From the IMG/VR virus record IMGVR_UViG_3300021963_004812, positions 1 to 21,449 of that record: 21,449 nt of DNA; one strand, given 5' to 3'. The first letter of the stretch is position 1; the number at the start of each line of letters is the position of its first letter. The position numbers and the translations under genes were made by a program. The notes beneath the pieces are model-generated. The model was not told the DNA's origin. It saw only the letters and a list, made by a program, of their open reading frames with translations, and made no database searches. The DNA is from a virus. Below, in pieces: positions 2,585 to 17,205 of this stretch.

Positions 2585-4393
2585 ATGGCAACACCAATTA
2601 TTAAAGCAGCCGGATCATCTGGAACTTCAGGTAGTAATGGCTTAAACGGTACTTCTGGTTTTGACGGTTTGGACGGTACTTCAGGAACAGCTGGAACTTC
2701 AGGTTCTAATGGTTCTTCTGGTATCAACGGTACTTCAGGTACTGCTGGAACTTCAGGTTCTAGCGGAACTGATGGAAGTAACGGTTCTAGTGGTTCTTCT
2801 GGTACGGCTGGTACTTCAGGTACTGCTGGTACTTCAGGTACTTCAGGTTCAAACGGTTCATCAGGAACATCAGGTTCATCAGGAACAAACGGTTCAAGTG
2901 GTTCATCAGGAACTGCAGGTACATCAGGAACTTCAGGAACAGCAGGTACTTCAGGTACTGACGGTTCTTCAGGAACTGCAGGTACTTCAGGAACTTCAGG
3001 TATAGACGGTACTTCAGGTACAAATGGTTCTTCAGGTTCAAGCGGAACAGCTGGAACTTCAGGAACAGCTGGAACTTCAGGAACAGCTGGAACTTCTGGT
3101 TCAAGCGGAACAGACGGTTCTTCTGGTTCAAGCGGAACAGCTGGAACTTCAGGAACAGCTGGAACTTCTGGAACTTCAGGTTCTAATGGTTCTTCAGGTT
3201 CAAGCGGAACGGCAGGAACTTCAGGAACAGACGGTTCTTCAGGTTCAAGTGGAACAGCAGGAACTTCAGGAACTTCAGGTTCTAATGGTTCTTCAGGTTC
3301 AAGCGGAACAGCTGGAACTTCAGGAACAGACGGTTCTTCAGGTTCAAGTGGAACAGCAGGAACTTCAGGAACAGCAGGAACTTCTGGAACTTCAGGTTCT
3401 TCTGGAGTTAACGGTGCTCAAGGCGCTGCAGGAACTTCAGGAACATCTGGTTCAAGCGGAACAGCAGGTACTTCAGGCACAGCTGGAACTTCAGGTTCTT
3501 CTGGAGTTAACGGTGCTCAAGGTGCTGCAGGAACTTCTGGTTCAAGTGGTTCTTCAGGAACTTCTGGTGTATCAGGAACTTCTGGTTCAAGCGGTTCTTC
3601 AGGAACTTCAGGTGTAAACGGTGCTCAAGGTGCTACAGGTGCTCAAGGTGCTACAGGTGCTCAAGGTGCTACAGGTGCTCAAGGTGCTACAGGTGCTCAA
3701 GGTGCTACAGGTGCTCAAGGTGCTACAGGTGCTCAAGGTGCTACAGGTGCTCAAGGTGGTTCAGGTACTTCAGGCGTAAATGGTGCTCAAGGTGCTACGG
3801 GTGCTCAAGGTGCTGCTAATCAAGGTGCTCAAGGTGCTCAAGGTGCAAGTGGAGCTACTATTTTAGGTTCATCAAATACATGGACAGGTATTAACCAATT
3901 TACATCTAATCAAAACACAGGAACTGGATCTAATGCACAATTACAAGCATACGGAACTACAAGCGGTGCTATGATGTCATTTCACAGAGGTGGTGCTTAT
4001 GCAATTAACTTAGGTTTAGATTCAGATAACGTATTTAGACTAGGTGGTTGGTCTGCTGGCGCAAATAGATTGCAAATCGATATGTCAGGTAACCTTACTA
4101 TGGCAGGTGATATTACAGCATACTCTGATGCAAGAGTTAAAGAAAATGTAGAAACTATTGCAGATGCATTAAATAAAGTTTTAGCTTTAAGAGGTGTTTC
4201 TTATAATAGAACAGATTCTGACGATAAAGCTAAGAAAATCGGTGTAATCGCACAGGAAATGCAAGAAGTTATGCCAGAAGTTGTTCACGAACAAGCTGAC
4301 GGAATGTTAGGTGTTTCTTATGGAAACTTAGTAGGTTTATTAATCGAAGCTATCAAAGACTTAAATGCTAAGGTAGATTCATTACAGAAATAA
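2585..4393 (+). CDS. Collagen-like tail fibre with C-terminal S74 intramolecular chaperone
   Basis: This 602-residue protein has three parts. Residues 10-425 are almost unbroken Gly-X-Y triplets (about 138) built from Thr, Ser, Ala, Asn, Asp, Val and Gln, with no Pro, Lys or Arg. One break occurs near GAANQG. Residues 426-510 form a beta-rich linker typical of fibre heads. Residues 510-602 match the peptidase S74 / chaperone-of-endosialidase domain: YSDARVKENV at 513-522, then KKIGVIAQEMQEVMPEVV and a terminal coiled coil. In this family the chaperone trimerises the fibre and cuts itself off before the conserved Ser-Asp (here S514-D515). The protein is probably a trimeric receptor-binding fibre on the virion tail. 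A terminator follows at 4433. Oxygenase and glycosyltransferase genes lie immediately downstream. Confidence 0.93.
   Translation: MATPIIKAAGSSGTSGSNGLNGTSGFDGLDGTSGTAGTSGSNGSSGINGTSGTAGTSGSSGTDGSNGSSGSSGTAGTSGTAGTSGTSGSNGSSGTSGSSGTNGSSGSSGTAGTSGTSGTAGTSGTDGSSGTAGTSGTSGIDGTSGTNGSSGSSGTAGTSGTAGTSGTAGTSGSSGTDGSSGSSGTAGTSGTAGTSGTSGSNGSSGSSGTAGTSGTDGSSGSSGTAGTSGTSGSNGSSGSSGTAGTSGTDGSSGSSGTAGTSGTAGTSGTSGSSGVNGAQGAAGTSGTSGSSGTAGTSGTAGTSGSSGVNGAQGAAGTSGSSGSSGTSGVSGTSGSSGSSGTSGVNGAQGATGAQGATGAQGATGAQGATGAQGATGAQGATGAQGATGAQGGSGTSGVNGAQGATGAQGAANQGAQGAQGASGATILGSSNTWTGINQFTSNQNTGTGSNAQLQAYGTTSGAMMSFHRGGAYAINLGLDSDNVFRLGGWSAGANRLQIDMSGNLTMAGDITAYSDARVKENVETIADALNKVLALRGVSYNRTDSDDKAKKIGVIAQEMQEVMPEVVHEQADGMLGVSYGNLVGLLIEAIKDLNAKVDSLQK
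2612..3859 (+). repeat. Degenerate nine-base-based Gly-X-Y repeat tract
   Basis: About 1.2 kb of short, impure tandem repeats encode the collagen-like part of the fibre. The commonest units encode GTSGTAG, GSSGSSG and GAQGAT. Synonymous codons differ between copies in the first two thirds, while the last third is nearly pure. Such tracts gain and lose copies by recombination, changing fibre length without breaking frame because units are multiples of nine bases. Confidence 0.85.
3620..3745 (+). repeat. Seven exact copies of an 18-base repeat
   Basis: The unit GGTGCTCAAGGTGCTACA is repeated seven times head to tail without a single mismatch and encodes GAQGAT each time. An eighth copy, diverged in its second half, follows. 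The identity at synonymous sites contrasts with the scrambled codons of the preceding tract and indicates a recent expansion. Confidence 0.9.
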
Positions 4394-7251: not shown

Positions 7252-8202
7252 ATGAGAGGTAAAAATAAAATCATGTTATTCGAGCAATTTTTAAACGAAG
7301 CTTATAAAAGAGACGAGTTTCAAAAAGTTATAATTACGCGTAGAGCCGAATTAGACGATTCGTTTATTACTGGACCAAAATATACGCCTAAAGATTATTG
7401 GGTTGTAGTTACTAGAGGCACTGAATTAGAAAGTGTACCTAAGAATTTGCCAGTTTTGTGTTATGATAAAAAGACTTTAGAAAAATTATTAGATGAAGGT
7501 ATTATTCAAAACGACCAAGTTTATAATAAATTAGAAGCTCGTAAAAAAGTAAGTTCAAAAGCAGAATTCTATAAGTTACACGCAGACAGCGGTTATATTA
7601 TGCCAACTGTTTTGGATAAAAATGGAATCAAAGATCTTAAGTTTCCTATAGTTGCAAAGCCAGATAACGAGCATAGCGGCTTGGGTATTCAAGTTTTTAA
7701 ATCTAAAGAAGAATTAGATGACGCAGATCTAAGTAAGTTTTCATCATTCTCAGAAAAAATAGACATCAAAGAAGAACATAGATTTTTTGTTTGGCGTGGA
7801 GAAATGATTCAGTGGACTCAAAGAAAACCAATGGATGATGAAACTGCAGATATTGCTAAGAAAAATCCAGATCAAGAAACAAACTTCTCATATATTTTAA
7901 GAAATGAGCAGCCAAGTGATGACGTTAAAAAAGTAATAGCTTATTTTTCAGAAGCACATAGTGACTTAGATTTTTATGCTATTGATCTAGCAGAAACAAA
8001 AGACGGTAAAATTTACGTCTTCGAAATGAATTCAGAACCCGGAGCATTATTCGGAGTTATGTCGCTCGTATATCAACGTATCTACCAAGACTGGTATGAA
8101 AAAACCATAAGCGATGATACTGTTCAATTACTAAAAGATTTTAGACAAAAGGATATTGAAGCTAATAAGAAACAAAATCCTAACTGGAAGGTAAAAGAAT
8201 AA
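7252..8202 (+). CDS. ATP-grasp ligase-like protein with capsid-targeting-like N-terminus
   Basis: This protein of up to 316 residues has an ATP-grasp core of the RimK/carboxylate-amine ligase kind. FPIVAKPDNEHSGLGIQVF (K136 plus Gly-rich loop) binds ATP, EHRFFVWRGEMI is the middle strand, and D245, E258 and N260 (IDLAE, EMNSEP) are the metal ligands. It would join a carboxylate to an amine using ATP; substrates are unknown. A second ATG at 7273 gives the start MLFEQFLNEAYKR, which resembles the T4 internal-protein capsid-targeting sequence (MKTYQEFIAE|A) including the gp21 cleavage pattern hydrophobic-x-Glu|Ala. I list the outer ATG as bound, but 7273 may be the true start. It ends the fibre/modification block and may act on virion proteins. 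Confidence 0.82.
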   Translation: MRGKNKIMLFEQFLNEAYKRDEFQKVIITRRAELDDSFITGPKYTPKDYWVVVTRGTELESVPKNLPVLCYDKKTLEKLLDEGIIQNDQVYNKLEARKKVSSKAEFYKLHADSGYIMPTVLDKNGIKDLKFPIVAKPDNEHSGLGIQVFKSKEELDDADLSKFSSFSEKIDIKEEHRFFVWRGEMIQWTQRKPMDDETADIAKKNPDQETNFSYILRNEQPSDDVKKVIAYFSEAHSDLDFYAIDLAETKDGKIYVFEMNSEPGALFGVMSLVYQRIYQDWYEKTISDDTVQLLKDFRQKDIEANKKQNPNWKVKE

Positions 8203-8540: not shown

Positions 8541-9284
8541 ATGTATAAAGCAGAAGAACTTAAAAACATGCTTTTCGTAGATATCGAAACAGCATCTTCT
8601 CATGAAAATTATGAATCGTTTGTAGATTCACTAGGACCTAATTCAAGTATGGAAGAATGGTGGGCTGATAAAGCACAGTATCTTAAAAAAGATCGAGTAG
8701 AATTAAGTCAATTATCTAATGCAGAAATGTATAATACGCAAGCTGCTATATTTCCAGAATGGGGTCGCATTGTTTGTATCACCATCGGTCAGGTTAAAAT
8801 AGATTCAAACGGAATTCCTAATGATTTTAAAATGAGATCATTTGCAGGTGAAGATGAGAAGGCTATTTTAGAAGAATTCTTGCCAACACTCTCTGCTATT
8901 TTTTCAAAAGCGCCTTCTATTCGAATCGTCGGTTTCAATATCAAAGGCTTTGATATTCCTTATATCTGTAAAAAAGCAATGATCCATGGTGTTAAATTAC
9001 CATATCAATTTCATTTACAAAATGTAAAACCATGGGACAATTGTCTTTTGGATATTTCAGATATTTGGAAATTCGGTGGTTGGAATGGTGCAAAGCTTGG
9101 CGTTGTATGTGAAGTGATGGGAATTCCAAGTCCAAAAGAACAATTAGCTGGTGGAGAAGTTAGCGCTACTTTTTGGAGAGGTGATTTAAAGCTTATTACA
9201 GAATACTGCGAAAGAGACGTTAAAGCTACAGCAAATGTTCTTTTAAAAATGAGTGGCTTTGACACATTGACATTAGACTCTTAA
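8541..9284 (+). CDS. DEDDy 3'-5' exonuclease (PolB exonuclease-like)
   Basis: This 247-residue protein is a stand-alone 3'-5' exonuclease of the DEDDy/DnaQ-like superfamily, closest in pattern to the 'predicted 3'-5' exonuclease related to PolB' family (DNA_pol_B_exo2). Motif I is FVDIETAS with D14 and E16, motif II is GFNIKGFDIPYI, and motif III is YCERDVKAT, with the Tyr and Asp four residues apart as expected for DEDDy. It would remove nucleotides from DNA 3' ends using two metal ions, in proofreading, recombination or degradation of host DNA. There is no polymerase domain. It opens a new transcription unit, directly behind a terminator and a promoter-like element, and precedes the chaperone genes. 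Confidence 0.88.
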   Translation: MYKAEELKNMLFVDIETASSHENYESFVDSLGPNSSMEEWWADKAQYLKKDRVELSQLSNAEMYNTQAAIFPEWGRIVCITIGQVKIDSNGIPNDFKMRSFAGEDEKAILEEFLPTLSAIFSKAPSIRIVGFNIKGFDIPYICKKAMIHGVKLPYQFHLQNVKPWDNCLLDISDIWKFGGWNGAKLGVVCEVMGIPSPKEQLAGGEVSATFWRGDLKLITEYCERDVKATANVLLKMSGFDTLTLDS

Positions 9285-9380: not shown

Positions 9381-9755
9381 ATGTTTGGACACACAGGAAA
9401 AAGTTCATTTGAAAAATTAGCTGAAAAAATGTTTGATAGTATTGAACCAACGTGGAAACAAGAATTCAGATTTGCAAATCCGTTTAATGATACTAGTTTA
9501 GAGGATAATACACTAAGTATCGCATTACCTGGATTTTCTAAAAAGGACATTAAGATTGATGTTGACGGAGATTTACTAGTTGTTTCTAGTAAGGTTGAAG
9601 AAGCTGATGAAACAAAATTTAAAAAATCTTTTACAAGATCATTTAGATTAATTAAAGACATAGATGTTGATACTATTAAAGCATCGATGGAAAATGGTAT
9701 TCTATACATCACATTCGAAAGAAAAAATGTGGCAAAAGAAATAAAAATATCTTAA
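9381..9755 (+). CDS. Small heat-shock protein, Hsp20/alpha-crystallin family
   Basis: This 124-residue protein is a small heat-shock chaperone that would bind unfolding proteins without ATP. The alpha-crystallin domain spans about residues 38-118. It opens with NTLSIALPGFSKKDIKIDV and ends with the family hallmark ASMENGILYITF (A-x-x-x-N-G-x-L). A short C-terminal IKIS may serve as the I-x-I tail that locks oligomers. Hsp20 genes are known in T4-like cyanophages and other large phages. Here it sits near a CbpA-like J protein, which suggests a phage chaperone group. The start is 96 bases after the previous stop; an ATG at 9344 is out of frame and stops after 22 codons. Confidence 0.93.
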   Translation: MFGHTGKSSFEKLAEKMFDSIEPTWKQEFRFANPFNDTSLEDNTLSIALPGFSKKDIKIDVDGDLLVVSSKVEEADETKFKKSFTRSFRLIKDIDVDTIKASMENGILYITFERKNVAKEIKIS

Positions 9756-9810: not shown

Positions 9811-10107
9811 ATGTTTGCAGACTACGAAAACGACGAATTTGAAATGGATGACGAAATGTCACAAGAAGAAATTATTAACGCAAAGCAATTGTACAATAGT
9901 TTAGTGGATAGATTAGTCCGCGAAAATTATGAATCTATTGCCAAAAATGGTATTGATATTGTAAATACTAAAATTCATAATCTCGAGCCAAAACAAATAG
10001 AACAATTACGAGGCACTTTAGATTTTATGATTGCATATTTTACAGAATTAGAAGAATATGAAAAATGTGCAGTTTTACACAAATACGTCGAAGAGCTCAA
10101 TCAATAA
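9811..10107 (+). CDS. Small acidic protein with EEYEKC motif (paralogue of 11443)
   Basis: A 98-residue acidic protein of unknown function. The first 20 residues are mostly Asp, Glu, Met and Phe. The rest is helical and ends in TLDFMIAYFTELEEYEKCAVLHKYVEEL. This C-terminal block closely matches the end of the 85-residue protein at 11443 (FIDLLIKYFEEVEEYEKCDKL), so the two are diverged paralogues. The 'EEYEKC..L' helix recalls UVR-type helical hairpins (E-x-x-A/C-x-x-L) that bind partner proteins, but that is only a resemblance. It is driven by its own promoter-like element and followed by a terminator, so it forms a single-gene unit. Confidence 0.75.
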   Translation: MFADYENDEFEMDDEMSQEEIINAKQLYNSLVDRLVRENYESIAKNGIDIVNTKIHNLEPKQIEQLRGTLDFMIAYFTELEEYEKCAVLHKYVEELNQ

Positions 10108-10195: not shown

Positions 10196-10387
10196 ATGGA
10201 ACCAAAAGCATTAACAGACATTGCAACTCAACTTAAAAGAATTGCCGATATGATGGAACGTAATGAAAAACGTAACCTTATTAAAAATGACGGTATAGAA
10301 AAAGTTAAAGAGGCAATTAAAAAACGCAAGGATGAATTATTACGAAACATTGAAAGTTCCCGAGACAGCAAGTCAGGAAGAGATTAA
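10196..10387 (+). CDS. Small helical protein overlapping the DnaJ-like gene
   Basis: A 63-residue, highly charged, helical protein (TQLKRIADMMERNEKRNLI, then a Lys/Glu run). Its last 56 bases overlap the start of the J-protein gene in another frame, an unusually long overlap. The overlapped part encodes the less-ordered C-terminus. The repeated 'L..I...M' pattern suggests a short coiled coil. It is the first gene after a terminator and probably shares a message with the J protein and bS21-like genes. The function is unknown. Translation of the J gene may depend on ribosomes finishing this one. Confidence 0.65.
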   Translation: MEPKALTDIATQLKRIADMMERNEKRNLIKNDGIEKVKEAIKKRKDELLRNIESSRDSKSGRD

Positions 10388-11141
10388 AGCCGCGTATCGT
10401 AAACTTGCAAAAGAATATCACCCAGATAAAAATACGGGTGAAGATACCAAACAAAAATTTCAACAGATACAAGAAGCTTACTCTGTTTTAGGCGATAAAA
10501 ACAAAAAACAAGAGTATGATTCTAGAAATAGTCAACCTAATTTGGAAGACTTATTAAAAAACTGGGGCTTTGGTAATAATTTCGCAGATGATTTTAATAT
10601 GCACTTCGGTGGATATAGAAATAATCCAAATGCCAAAGGACAAGATATTAGAGTTACAATTCCTATAACTGTGAGTGAAATCTATAATGGATTTTCTAGA
10701 TCGATCGACGTCGGTACTGGCAGAATTAATGCTAATATACCTAAAGGTGCCAGAGAAGGTTCTAAATATAAAATGGCAGGCAAAGGGCAACCTAATCCCT
10801 TTAATTCCAATGCGCCTGCTGGAGATCTAATCATTAATATCAATTTGCAATACGATGAAAATTATATTATACAAGGTGATGATGTGATGATAGAAAGCTT
10901 TGTTAAATTCTATGACATGATTTTAGGTACTAATTTAGAGATTAGAATACCAAGCGGTAAAATCTCTATAAAAATTCCAGAAAATACATCACCGGGTAAA
11001 ATATTAAGAGTGCCTGGAAAAGGCTTACCAATTGCGGGCACAGAAATGTCAGGCGCACTATTAATAAAAATTAATACTAATTTTCAAAATTTAAATTCAG
11101 AGCAATTATCTTTAATAAATAGAGTTAAAGAATTAGATTAA
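10332..11141 (+). CDS. CbpA-like (class B) DnaJ co-chaperone
   Basis: This 269-residue protein is a J-domain co-chaperone that would stimulate DnaK. The J domain fills residues 1-65, from NYYETLKVPETASQEEIKAAYRKLA through HPD at 30-32 to KKQEYDSR. A shortened linker follows, then two DnaJ C-terminal substrate-binding domains: IRVTIPITVSEIYNGF near 100, INANIPKGAREGSKY, and GTNLEIRIPSGKISIKIPENTSPGKILRVPGKGLP near 200-235. There are no CxxCxGxG zinc repeats, so it is of the CbpA/class B type and shorter than the usual 300-330 residues. ATG 10332 is chosen because the J domain begins there; it starts inside the previous gene. Hsp20 lies nearby but no DnaK is seen, so it must use the host DnaK. 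Confidence 0.93.
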   Translation: MNYYETLKVPETASQEEIKAAYRKLAKEYHPDKNTGEDTKQKFQQIQEAYSVLGDKNKKQEYDSRNSQPNLEDLLKNWGFGNNFADDFNMHFGGYRNNPNAKGQDIRVTIPITVSEIYNGFSRSIDVGTGRINANIPKGAREGSKYKMAGKGQPNPFNSNAPAGDLIININLQYDENYIIQGDDVMIESFVKFYDMILGTNLEIRIPSGKISIKIPENTSPGKILRVPGKGLPIAGTEMSGALLIKINTNFQNLNSEQLSLINRVKELD

Positions 11142-11162
11142 TTTAAAAACACAACAACAGTT

Positions 11163-11354
11163 ATGATTATCATAGATGTAAACGGTAATATAGAAAAAGC
11201 TCTAAAAGAATATAAAAGAAAAGTTGCTAAAGTTAAACAAAACCAGCAACTTAGAAATAATCAAGAATTTGAAAAACCATCTGTAACTAGAAGAACAGAA
11301 ATAACCAAGGCCAAGTACGTTCAGGCTATTAAATCTCAAGCGGACCAAGATTAA
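11163..11354 (+). CDS. rpsU: Ribosomal protein bS21-like
   Basis: This 63-residue protein matches small-subunit ribosomal protein bS21 along its length. MIIIDVNGNIEKALKEYKRKV corresponds to the bS21 start (basic helix after a short strand), QQLRNNQEFEKPSVTRR to the conserved central 'LR.R..F.KPS..+R' block, and a Lys-rich helix with YVQAI ends it. Starting with MIII and carrying KPSV and YVQ is typical of Bacteroidota bS21. Virus-encoded bS21 has been reported before. It could replace host bS21 in ribosomes. In Flavobacterium, bS21 helps occlude the 16S anti-Shine-Dalgarno, so a phage version might alter start-site choice; that is inference. It is 21 bases after the J gene and has no Shine-Dalgarno itself. 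Confidence 0.87.
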   Translation: MIIIDVNGNIEKALKEYKRKVAKVKQNQQLRNNQEFEKPSVTRRTEITKAKYVQAIKSQADQD

Positions 11355-11442: not shown

Positions 11443-11700
11443 ATGAGCTACATATCAAATGAGGAGAAAGATCAACTCATGAGATCTAGTTACTATATAA
11501 TAACACGAAACTTTACTAAAACAGTAAATCGTTTCATTGCGTTCCAAGATGGAAGTAATTCTATTGAAATACCGCACGGTATAGGCCAAAGATCCAAATT
11601 TATAGATTTATTAATTAAATACTTCGAAGAAGTCGAAGAGTATGAGAAGTGCGACAAACTCGTGAAGCTGAAAGAGTTAGTTGTGGATGCAGGTGATTAA
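11443..11700 (+). CDS. Small protein with EEYEKC motif (paralogue of 9811)
   Basis: An 85-residue helical protein of unknown function. Its C-terminal half (FIDLLIKYFEEVEEYEKCDKLVKLKELV) matches that of the 98-residue protein at 9811, while the N-terminal half is different and neutral-to-basic rather than acidic. This is a paralogous pair flanking the J-protein and bS21-like genes. The shared helix may bind a common partner. It follows an 88-base gap and precedes phoH by 25 bases. A weak AT-rich hairpin in the gap (TTTTATT/AATAAAA, near 11356-11373) is not convincing as a terminator. Confidence 0.72.
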   Translation: MSYISNEEKDQLMRSSYYIITRNFTKTVNRFIAFQDGSNSIEIPHGIGQRSKFIDLLIKYFEEVEEYEKCDKLVKLKELVVDAGD

Positions 11701-11725: not shown

Positions 11726-12463
11726 ATGCAAAAAAGATCAGCAGAAAGTAAAACAAAATCAACTAGCAGCAGACCAACGGCTGCCAAACCAAAAAAGACA
11801 ACAGTTAAAGAATTAGATTTAGTAGGAGTACAATTAAAACCAAGTCAACAAGATTATTTTCAGCAGATCCAAAAGAACGAAATTACATTTTGTTCTGGAC
11901 CAGCAGGTACGTCAAAAACATTTACAGCATGTTTTACGTCATTACATTTATTAGCCACAAAACAAGTTTCCAAAATTATTTTATGTAAACCGATTCAAGA
12001 ATCTGGAGAAAAGTTAGGGTTCTTACCCGGAGATATTGCAGACAAAATTGATCCATACATGCAATCTTATATTTCAAACTTCAAGAAGATTGTAGGTGAT
12101 GAATTAACAGAAGGCTTAATTTCTTCTGGAGCAATAGAATTCAAACCGCTTGCATTTATGAGAGGAGATACCTTTGATGATGCTTTCATGATTCTAGATG
12201 AAGCACAAAATGCAACGTTTAAACAACTTATGCTGTTCGTAACTCGTATGGGTAAAAATTCTAAAGTTTTAGTGACAGGCGACGTTAGTCAGTATGATAT
12301 TCCTAAAGCAAGCGCAGGTCTTCCTGGATTTACAGCCTTAATGAAAGGTGTTAAAGGTGTAGGCGAACATATCTTTACCAACAAAGATATTGTAAGAGCT
12401 AAGATTTTACAAGATGTCGTAGACAGATACGACAAATGGAGAGTAGACAATCCAGAGAAATAA
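11726..12463 (+). CDS. phoH: PhoH-like P-loop ATPase
   Basis: This 245-residue protein is a PhoH-family ATPase, a group widespread in tailed phages and related to the N-terminal half of superfamily I helicases. An unstructured Lys/Ser/Thr-rich tail (residues 1-30) precedes LKPSQQDYFQQIQKNEITFCSG. The Walker A motif is GPAGTSKT at 58-65, where Ser replaces the usual Gly before Lys. IILCKPIQESGEKLGFLPGD is the family hallmark after it, and Walker B is MILDEAQN at 155-162. VTGDVSQYD is the next conserved motif. The role in phages is unsettled; RNA or nucleotide metabolism is most discussed. The RNase HII gene starts 50 bases downstream, behind a hairpin that covers its start codon. Confidence 0.93.
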   Translation: MQKRSAESKTKSTSSRPTAAKPKKTTVKELDLVGVQLKPSQQDYFQQIQKNEITFCSGPAGTSKTFTACFTSLHLLATKQVSKIILCKPIQESGEKLGFLPGDIADKIDPYMQSYISNFKKIVGDELTEGLISSGAIEFKPLAFMRGDTFDDAFMILDEAQNATFKQLMLFVTRMGKNSKVLVTGDVSQYDIPKASAGLPGFTALMKGVKGVGEHIFTNKDIVRAKILQDVVDRYDKWRVDNPEK

Positions 12464-12475
12464 AACAAAGTAAAG

Positions 12476-12518
12476 GACATGTGTATAACTATTATAACTT
12501 TAATAATATACACATGTC
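12476..12518 (+). promoter_or_regulatory. Hairpin that sequesters the RNase HII start codon
   Basis: GACATGTGTATA (12476-12487) and TATACACATGTC (12507-12518) are perfect 12-bp inverted repeats around a 19-base AT-rich loop. The 3' arm contains the ATG at 12514 in its middle. In RNA the start codon would be fully paired, so messages reading through from phoH should be poorly translated, while messages starting inside the loop would lack the 5' arm. There is no U-run after it, so it is not a standard terminator. Confidence 0.75.
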
Positions 12519-13146
12519 TGATACTAGATACGTAACACTCAAATCACATTATAACGAAGACCAATCAATCATAGAAGTTGGCGTAGACGAAGCTGGCCGA
12601 GGATCTCTTGCTGGTCCAGTCACAGTAGCTGCATGTATAATGCCAGTTAATTTTTCACATCCTTTAGTCAAAGATTCAAAGCTTCTTTCTGAAAAACAAA
12701 AAGAAGAAGCGTATAAGATCGTAATGGCAAACGCAATAGCTTGGCATTGTGTGCATGTTGATGCCAAATTAATAGAAGAACAAAACATTCTAAAAGCAAC
12801 TTTACACGGTATGATGTTGGCGTTAAGCGGTGTTGAAGAAACTACAGATTTTGATTTTATCTTAGTCGATGGAGATCAATTCCATGGATATAATGGTAAA
12901 AATTACGTAACGATCGTCGGCGGAGATAATAAATATACATCGATTGCTGCAGCTTCTATTATTGCAAAAATCAAACACGACAATTGGATGAGAGAATGTG
13001 AAGAAGGTAAAATATATGGATGGGCTTCTAATAAAGGATATGGTACTAAACAACATTTAGATGCCATCAAAGAGCACGGTCCATCTGAACATCACCGAAC
13101 AAGTTTCATTTCACATATTGTTACAAAAACAGCAGAATTATTTTAA
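12514..13146 (+). CDS. rnhB: Ribonuclease HII
   Basis: This 210-residue enzyme cuts the RNA strand of RNA-DNA hybrids and at ribonucleotides embedded in DNA. The signature VGVDEAGRGSLAGPV gives catalytic D25 and E26. LVDGDQ gives D119, GGDNKY gives D138, and AAASIIAKIKHD is the conserved family segment after it. The length is normal for bacterial RNase HII. It may remove primers in phage replication, as T4 Rnh does with an unrelated fold. I start at ATG 12514. An in-frame ATG at 12436 would overlap phoH and add 26 residues without any family resemblance, some of them encoded by the hairpin. The next gene overlaps its stop by one base (TAATG). Confidence 0.93.
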   Translation: MSDTRYVTLKSHYNEDQSIIEVGVDEAGRGSLAGPVTVAACIMPVNFSHPLVKDSKLLSEKQKEEAYKIVMANAIAWHCVHVDAKLIEEQNILKATLHGMMLALSGVEETTDFDFILVDGDQFHGYNGKNYVTIVGGDNKYTSIAAASIIAKIKHDNWMRECEEGKIYGWASNKGYGTKQHLDAIKEHGPSEHHRTSFISHIVTKTAELF

Positions 13147-13835: not shown

Positions 13836-14234
13836 ATGAACATTCAAGAATTCAAATGTAATGGTTTTGGCAATGCGCAACAAGCCGACAATGTTAAACC
13901 AACTATTCAAACCGCAATTTCAGTATTTAGATTACGTAAAACTAACGAAGAGATATTTGCCAGTTTTCCAAAGGGAGATGATTATCATTTAGGTACTAGA
14001 TTTTACGATGATGATTCCGTAGCTAGTCGTATATGTTCAGGCTTAGTAGAATACGCAGAAAAACAATTGTACAAAGCATTTGGTAAAGACGCGCCATCTT
14101 TAATCGTAGAACAATGCATTGATGCATTAGTAAATTCTTTAAGTGGCTCAGAAATGGATCTAATTATTTTAGAAGGTATGCGAGATTGTGCTTCAGCTGA
14201 TCATTGGTATGCATACGAAAAACAATGGAATTAA
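13836..14234 (+). CDS. Hypothetical protein upstream of UVDE
   Basis: A 132-residue soluble protein of unknown function. It has TIQTAISVFRLRKTNEEIFASFP in the first half and a helical second half ending ADHWYAYEKQWN. Several Cys residues (C9, and others in SRICSG, VEQCID and MRDCAS) are not arranged as a zinc site. It starts 15 bases after a promoter-like core and ends 16 bases before the UVDE gene, so the two are probably co-transcribed. It could be an accessory of DNA repair by context only. Confidence 0.7.
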   Translation: MNIQEFKCNGFGNAQQADNVKPTIQTAISVFRLRKTNEEIFASFPKGDDYHLGTRFYDDDSVASRICSGLVEYAEKQLYKAFGKDAPSLIVEQCIDALVNSLSGSEMDLIILEGMRDCASADHWYAYEKQWN

Positions 14235-14250
14235 TCAACATATAATAGAT

Positions 14251-15177
14251 ATGAAAATAAATTTAGGGTACTGTTGTATTAATATGACTTTGCAAAAAGA
14301 ACGTAAAGTTACTATTGGTCGTGGCATGATTAAAAAAACATTCGCAGAAAAAGGTATTAATTATGCAAGCGAATTGGCTTTAGCAAATGTCAAAGATATG
14401 GTAGAAATTATCAAATGGAATCATAAAAATGGAATTTCATTATATCGTATGAGTTCTGACATGTTTCCTTGGTGCAGTGAATACGAACTTAAAGATTTGC
14501 CAGATTATGACAAGATTTGTAATGTTCTCAAAGGTGCAGGTACTTTAGCTAAACAATATGGCCAAAGACTAACCTTTCATCCCGGTCCATTTTCAGTATT
14601 AGCTTCGGCAAATCCAGACGTGGTTACAAAAACTATTCGAGATTTAAATACGCACGGTGAAATTATGGATCTTATTGGTTTGCCTAGAACGCCTTATGCA
14701 GCTATCAATATACATGTTAATACAACAGCGCCAGATAAAGCGTCTGCTATGCAAAGATTCTGCGAAAACTTTAAACGCTTAGACGATTCTGTTAAATCTA
14801 GACTCGTAGTAGAAAATGATGACAAGGAGTCACAATACACAGTTCAGGACTTATATGATTCCGTGTATAGTATCATACGTGTTCCGATAACATTTGATTA
14901 CCATCATCATTGGTGTCATCCTGGTGAATTAGATCAAGAGGCTTCTTTAAAATTAGCAGCAAAATCTTGGCCTAAAGATGTCAAACAACTTACACACTTT
15001 TCTTCATGTAAAACTATTCATGAAGATGCTTCTCAAACTAATAAGCGAGCACATGCAGATTACTTATATGACAAAATAGATTCTTATGGCTTAGATATTG
15101 ATGTAGAAGTAGAAGCTAAAGCCAAAGAATTAGCTGTATTTCAATATTTGAAACAAAATAAATTACAATTGGTATAA
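14251..15177 (+). CDS. uvsE: UV-damage endonuclease (UVDE family)
   Basis: This 308-residue TIM-barrel enzyme would nick DNA 5' to UV photoproducts, starting a light-independent repair route. Family motifs appear in order: INLGYCCINM at the start, ISLYRMSSDMFPW, LTFHPGPF (H110), INIHVN (H155), LVVENDD (E188) and FDYHHHWCHPG (D216, with H218-H220 and H223), matching the metal-binding residues of UVDE. The length is standard. I start at ATG 14251, where the family N-terminus begins; an in-frame ATG at 14188 would overlap the previous gene by 47 bases. T4 uses the unrelated DenV for the same lesions. The gene fits a phage exposed to sunlight, a habitat inference only. Confidence 0.93.
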   Translation: MKINLGYCCINMTLQKERKVTIGRGMIKKTFAEKGINYASELALANVKDMVEIIKWNHKNGISLYRMSSDMFPWCSEYELKDLPDYDKICNVLKGAGTLAKQYGQRLTFHPGPFSVLASANPDVVTKTIRDLNTHGEIMDLIGLPRTPYAAINIHVNTTAPDKASAMQRFCENFKRLDDSVKSRLVVENDDKESQYTVQDLYDSVYSIIRVPITFDYHHHWCHPGELDQEASLKLAAKSWPKDVKQLTHFSSCKTIHEDASQTNKRAHADYLYDKIDSYGLDIDVEVEAKAKELAVFQYLKQNKLQLV

Positions 15178-16764: not shown

Positions 16765-17205
16765 ATGCCTAGAATTCCAATAGACAAGATATACATGCAA
16801 ATAGCCTATCAAGTGGCTAAACTATCTTATGCAGAAAGACGTAAGGTCGGATGTGTAATTGTCAAAGACGAACAGATCGTTTCATTTGGCTATAATGGAA
16901 CACCTCATGGATTTGACAATGAATGTGAAACGTATTCACATGATGGTTGCGAATGCACTACCAAAAGAGAAGTCCTACATGCTGAATCAAATGCGCTAAC
17001 TAAGTTGGCAAAATCTACCTTGACTTCTAAAGACACTATTCTTTACACTACTACACTACCTTGCTTTGATTGCGCTAAATTGATTATTCAAGCTGGGGTA
17101 AAGGAAGTTTATTATTGTGAAGACTATCGCGACATGTCAGGTATTATGTTATTACAGCGCGCGGGCATTGAGGTCAATCAAGTGATTGTCTGGAACAATG
17201 ATTAA
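16765..17205 (+). CDS. dCMP deaminase
   Basis: This 146-residue zinc enzyme would convert dCMP to dUMP, feeding dTMP synthesis for phage DNA. The zinc site is HAE (H72, E74) plus PCFDC (C100, C103), the standard cytidine/deoxycytidylate deaminase arrangement. GYNGTPHGFDNECE at 42-55 is the hallmark of the dCMP branch, and C54, H59, C62 and C64 can form the second zinc site known in T4 Cd. It ends with a helix-strand pair (YYCEDYRDMSG). The start is 18 bases after a T4-late-like octamer, odd for a gene that is early in T4. Neighbours are small unknown genes rather than other nucleotide enzymes. Confidence 0.93.
   Translation: MPRIPIDKIYMQIAYQVAKLSYAERRKVGCVIVKDEQIVSFGYNGTPHGFDNECETYSHDGCECTTKREVLHAESNALTKLAKSTLTSKDTILYTTTLPCFDCAKLIIQAGVKEVYYCEDYRDMSGIMLLQRAGIEVNQVIVWNND

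Follow-up and report, generated by a model that had tools for sequence, protein, structure and literature searches.

A phage bS21 gene lacking a Shine-Dalgarno sequence in a conserved DnaJ–PhoH gene block

Main finding

The open reading frame (ORF) at positions 11163–11354 of the 21,449-base IMG/VR stretch analyzed here (hereafter the window) is, judging from its sequence, a genuine bS21 homolog, a chance match being excluded. The gene most likely descends from a Flavobacteriales-type rpsU gene, and selection seems to have kept it in a large, uncultured tailed phage, the host of which presumably belongs to the Bacteroidota. No ribosomal protein is found in phages more often than bS21, and in Flavobacteriales this protein decides whether ribosomes read the Shine-Dalgarno (SD) sequence, rpsU itself being almost the only gene to use one. 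The window gene is a further example of a type already published, in a setting unlike the best-described one. The features on which the analysis draws are the following:

9381–9755, + strand: small heat-shock protein Hsp20 (Pfam, PHROG), near the block and less consistently present
9811–10107, + strand: 98-aa protein whose C-terminus bears an EEYEKC motif resembling the one in the 85-aa protein (from the sequence)
10332–11141, + strand: DnaJ-type co-chaperone (J domain and DnaJ_C), adjoining the bS21 gene on its 5' side and conserved in the block
11138–11162, + strand: region upstream of the bS21 gene, with no SD (duplex with the 16S tail, +0.8 kcal/mol)
11163–11354, + strand: phage bS21 (rpsU-like), 63 aa, on profile, tree, and alignment evidence; Y52 corresponds to Y54 of Flavobacterium johnsoniae
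11443–11700, + strand: 85-aa protein with an EEYEKC helix motif at its end, adjoining the bS21 gene on its 3' side; conserved block marker
11726–12463, + strand: PhoH-like ATPase (Pfam), conserved in the block
12436–13146, + strand: RNase HII (Pfam, NCBIfam), conserved in the block

Identification of the bS21 homolog

The ORF runs, as originally predicted, from an ATG at 11163 to a stop codon at 11352–11354; its translation is MIIIDVNGNIEKALKEYKRKVAKVKQNQQLRNNQEFEKPSVTRRTEITKAKYVQAIKSQADQD, and it is the only bS21 in the window. Its identity, proposed in the original prediction, was confirmed by profile searches, in which Pfam PF01165 (43.1 bits for a cut-off of 27, E 3.3e-11, residues 7–53) and NCBIfam TIGR00030 (31.7 bits; cut-off 28.95) both exceeded their curated cut-offs, and PHROG_21469 "ribosomal protein S21" also matched (E 1.1e-4). 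The best PDB sequence match was the bS21 of F. johnsoniae (7jil_z, E 1.7e-10), which a profile of 11 relatives, including three host bS21, recovered over positions 1–63 (E 1.5e-31). The central LR...F.KPS..R block that had been noticed at the outset is found as LRNNQEFEKPSVTRR. With its 63 residues and the two helices (10–34 and 39–62) of its AlphaFold2 model (mean pLDDT 82), the protein has the length of about 60–70 aa and the two-helix fold of a bS21. A weak Pfam match to Mre11_2nd, which lies under its own cut-off, was dismissed as compositional.

The window protein belongs to the same family as the F. johnsoniae protein (7jil; PMC9976891), has the same length and shares about 45% identity with it. 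Its last 10 residues, which are outside the Pfam match, align with Flavobacteriales bS21, and both proteins carry the C-terminal KA.YxQ stretch with the tyrosine that stacks on the anti-Shine-Dalgarno (ASD). Tyr54 of F. johnsoniae bS21 stacks on A1534 and helps to steer the 16S 3' tail into the pocket formed by bS21, bS18, and bS6; the Y54A substitution or the loss of the C-terminus raises SD use, and ribosomes without bS21 show increased SD use and decreased initiation on SD-less mRNAs (PMC9976891). Y52 of the window protein aligns with this residue. Among the 88 distinct phage proteins compared, the position is occupied by Y in 78, H in 6, and F in 2, and is therefore aromatic in 86, a conservation already described for Bacteroidetes phages by Chen et al. 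2022 (PMC9723584). The window protein differs from host bS21 at the helix-1 and loop positions F23V, G27K, and T28Q, and the phage-type residues recur among the 88 sequences (V for F23 in 65, K/R for G27 in 79, Q for T28 in 78); this zone is broadly matched by the divergent region in the phage bS21 of Chen et al. (PMC9723584). These differences in residue composition may reflect an altered function.

Relatives, phylogeny, and selection

In INPHARED, no close copy was found in annotated isolate phages, the sole tblastn matches being metagenomic phages with less than 60% identity. In IMG/VR, 40 loci were obtained using the protein itself as query, and a broader alignment used as query gave 381 matching stretches, 80 of which were kept. 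In a tree of 139 bS21 rows, which has only 64 columns and a moderate resolution and holds no sequences other than bS21, the window protein lies inside a phage-only set of 46 rows (SH-aLRT 95), which joins the Flavobacteriales bS21 (also 95); the Bacteroidales-type bS21, assigned as such from the type of sequence, are distant from it. The comparison with the relative at locus L005 gave a dN of 0.18 and a dS of 1.03 (dN/dS about 0.18; NG86, a rough value on very short sequences), which points to purifying selection on the phage bS21.

A longer view of the phage is provided by a 256,444-base record (L003, in G002), which shows 94% nucleotide identity to the window over the shared region and has a GC content of 32.3%, 27 tRNA genes, and a Gp23-type (T4-like) major capsid gene. 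Terminase genes were sought via PF17289 in 13 phage records, and none were found in any of them.

Organization of the gene block

The order DnaJ, bS21, 85-aa protein, PhoH, RNase HII, and small membrane protein occurs in 13 of the 117 bS21 loci obtained in the two IMG/VR scans; one further locus (L041) also shows the block order in a record that ends before DnaJ. The identities of DnaJ, PhoH, and RNase HII drop to about 41–64% in the more distant block loci. The original prediction had placed the gene with chaperones in what looked like a host-takeover block: the Hsp20 and DnaJ genes are real, while "host takeover" is an interpretation. Since 127 of 900 published phages have Hsp20 in the vicinity of bS21 (Chen et al., PMC9723584), a chaperone neighborhood is not in itself new.

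The phages described by Chen et al. 2022 (PMC9723584) resemble the present one in being large, AT-rich tailed phages with many tRNAs, in carrying a Flavobacteriia-like bS21 with an aromatic position 54 and a divergent helix 1, and in that phage and bacterial bS21 form separate clusters. They differ in that their bS21 is on the reverse strand among capsid, terminase, and protease genes, whereas the window bS21 is co-directional with DnaJ, the 85-aa gene, PhoH, and RNase HII. The distance from bS21 to the Gp23 capsid gene amounts to 88–97 kb in the block records (in linear coordinates) and to 92 kb in the 256-kb relative. The published arrangement was recovered at four other loci (L015, L018, L147, and L173), where bS21 lies 4.4–5.4 kb from the major capsid protein gene and on the opposite strand. 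Given the distance in the block records, the late expression inferred by Chen et al. should not be transferred to this phage.

The surroundings of bS21 are rich in genes of nucleic-acid metabolism, not in virion genes, and include a PolB-type 3'-5' exonuclease (8541–9284), the UV-damage endonuclease UvdE (14188–15177), and a dCMP deaminase (16765–17205). An ATP-grasp protein (7252–8202; Pfam R2K_3) has a weak match to the PHROG "ribosomal protein S6 glutaminyl transferase" (E 2.4e-6); its gene recurs near bS21 in related phages, and the ASD pocket of bS21 also includes bS6. Three different small proteins (83–98 aa) that flank DnaJ and bS21 share the C-terminal EEYEKC helix motif: those at 9811–10107 and 11443–11700 in the window, and those encoded by ORFs located 5' of the 85-aa gene in L308 and L311. 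Farther away, a collagen-like fiber with GTSGSSGTAGTSG-type repeats (2585–4393) matches tail-fiber families, and a protein with a partial J domain (1107–1700, − strand) is encoded on the strand opposite to its neighbors.

Start signals of bS21 and of the phage

SD pairing was computed between the 25 bases 5' of each gene and the sequence AUCACCUCCUUUCU, which we take to be the 16S tail, an assumption supported by its complementarity to host rpsU leaders; alternative 16S tails gave the same contrast between host and phage. All 79 Flavobacteriales rpsU genes examined, a sample gathered with a Flavobacterium query and phylogenetically clumped, have an extended SD (−16.8 to −23.3 kcal/mol), vs. 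+0.8 kcal/mol for the window bS21. The 92 distinct pairs of phage gene and leader have a median of −1.1 kcal/mol, and only one of them reaches −13 or below. The Mann-Whitney p obtained with the clumped host sample does not count as independent evidence. The exception, a block phage (L210/L305), has an extended SD, AAAAAGGAGGTAGAGTC, before the ATG (−14.3 kcal/mol) and, to judge from this leader, may have retained or recovered autoregulation of the host kind. When Bacteroidota genomes were drawn evenly, a pairing of −13 or below was seen in 39 of 70 rpsU leaders, these 70 being weighted to high-scoring bS21; the SD contrast is therefore clear-cut only against Flavobacteriales, and the argument that the phage gene escapes host control is weaker if the host lies outside this order. 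Two or three bS21 genes each were observed in six Bacteroidota genomes (G051, G102, G110, G117, G132, and G154), and both copies of G051 (L218 and L264) and one of those of G117 (L282) have no strong SD; these extra copies may be prophage or alternative ribosomal copies.

The rpsU of Flavobacteriales is known for its exceptionally strong SD and is autoregulated via ribosomes lacking bS21 (McNutt et al. 2023, PMC9976891). The window gene thus differs from F. johnsoniae rpsU, which has the extended SD and autoregulation in the host; the missing SD concerns the control of the gene and not the bS21 character of its product.

The avoidance of SD extends throughout the phage. In the 256-kb relative, an SD of −7 kcal/mol or below precedes 1 of 274 genes (of at least 80 aa), vs. 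19 in the mock upstream region, and A is overrepresented at −3 (0.67) and at about −11 to −13 (0.59–0.63). In the window, no SD was found at any of the 27 starts checked. SD-less, A-rich initiation is the Bacteroidia pattern (PMC9976891), and the weak SD use which the original prediction had called upon is therefore seen in the phage itself. Since the phage avoids SD, it should depend on the mode of initiation of bS21-replete ribosomes, which is poor in bS21-free ones.

Proposed role of the phage bS21

The reading we favor is that the phage bS21 probably enters the host 30S subunit, hides the ASD, keeps the ribosomes bS21-replete for the SD-less phage messages, and turns down the host rpsU. 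According to this scheme, the phage protein would join the host 30S instead of, or alongside, the host protein, its retained C-terminal helix and tyrosine would keep the 16S 3' tail tucked away, and the bS21-replete ribosomes would favor the SD-less, A-rich messages of the phage. The rpsU of Flavobacteriales needs a free ASD, since its extended SD is best translated by ribosomes lacking bS21; by occluding the ASD, the phage protein would therefore engage the host's own feedback and lower the synthesis of host bS21, whereas the phage gene, having no SD, should escape this autoregulation. Expression of the phage bS21, its incorporation into ribosomes, the occlusion of the ASD, and the displacement of host bS21 are what we infer from gene and protein sequences. 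The idea of a ribosome swap in Bacteroidota phages has already been published (PMC9723584, PMC9976891). The original prediction went on to suggest that a phage copy could change which starts are used; this is not favored, because Y52 is kept and the phage genes avoid SD, and the simplest prediction is that the protein helps to maintain SD-less initiation.

More tentatively, the phage might actually exploit the rpsU feedback to swap bS21, a possibility about which we are rather doubtful: as bS21-free ribosomes vanished, SD-dependent synthesis of host bS21 would vanish with them, the phage gene would still be translated, and the pool of ribosomes would drift to the phage bS21 form with no need for a protease. 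Another link has been proposed by McNutt et al. (PMC9976891), namely that a phage protease acts against host bS21, autoregulation being the counter-defense. If the feedback were indeed exploited, the loss of the SD by captured rpsU genes would mark this strategy in general; captured copies that keep the ASD-hiding residue and have no SD yield a sharp prediction, namely that host rpsU is silenced by phage bS21. In the open-licence literature searched, we found neither the SD contrast with the escape that it implies, nor the role in maintaining SD-less initiation, nor the DnaJ–PhoH block setting, and no Bacteroidota phage bS21 with a tested function was encountered there; the search being confined to this literature, priority is uncertain.

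It is also conceivable, and in our opinion unlikely, that the altered N-terminal helix and loop of phage bS21 make ribosomes prefer phage messages, as in the specialized ribosomes of Chen et al. 2022. The fact that the changes at F23, G27, and T28 are consistent across the 88 phage sequences and that Chen et al. find the same region divergent is in line with this idea; however, host and phage messages both look SD-less and A-rich and offer no known sequence feature by which bS21 could discriminate between them, and the window gene lies outside the late structural cluster on which the model of Chen et al. rests.

Phage-borne bS21, purifying selection on it, and the idea of ribosome replacement were reported by Mizuno et al. 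2019 (PMC6375957) and Al-Shayeb et al. 2020 (PMC7162821); many of the S21 of huge phages carry an N-terminal extension, which the window bS21 does not have. In the study of Mizuno et al., E. coli ribosomes took up a pelagiphage bS21 and, once purified, were severely impaired in protein synthesis (PMC6375957). This impairment would fit a phage bS21 that poisons host ribosomes, slows them down, or works away from the ribosome, which we nevertheless regard as improbable: the protein tested was, unlike the present one, that of a pelagiphage placed in a non-cognate host, the rRNA-binding end and Y52 are conserved in the window protein, and crippled ribosomes are of little use to a virus that makes hundreds of proteins.

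Losses of bS21 from the block

Searching with the 85-aa protein yielded 80 loci, 75 of which have at least 700 bases upstream; bS21 occupies the same slot at 56 of these 75 loci and is absent from 19. In 11 records without bS21 in the slot, including records of 234, 234, 200, and 145 kb, no other copy was found above the cut-off. On a tree of the block (DnaJ, PhoH, RNase HII, and the 85-aa protein; 821 columns), the absence corresponds to three events, affecting L286, L311, and one clade of 17. A fourth apparent loss (L290) proved to be an artifact of a contig end, which also explains the lack of bS21 in L299 and L304. In L286, nearly the whole gene has gone from between flanks that are about 87% identical, and a 3' remnant, ATTAAATCTCAAGCGGACCAAGAGTAA, corresponds to the last bS21 codons; L311 and L308 are 94–98% identical apart from the missing bS21. 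A small EYEKC protein was considered as a replacement for bS21 and rejected: in sister phages its gene lies 5' of bS21, so that the losses are simple deletions.

The gene is thus most likely ancestral in the block and losable and, having been lost at least three times, would be helpful but not essential, with a conditional benefit. That it is a mere passenger with no present function is very improbable, since these losses, one of them very recent with its 3' remnant, are set against the dN/dS of about 0.18, the occupation of the same slot across deep branches of the block tree, and the aromatic residue kept at position 54 in nearly all the phage proteins. Matched pairs with which to ask when bS21 helps are provided by the DnaJ–PhoH setting and by the deletion that occurred naturally in a close relative. 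At the L286 locus, PhoH and RNase HII are also separated by about 950 additional bases, which contain an ORF that reads like a putative GIY-YIG-type homing endonuclease.
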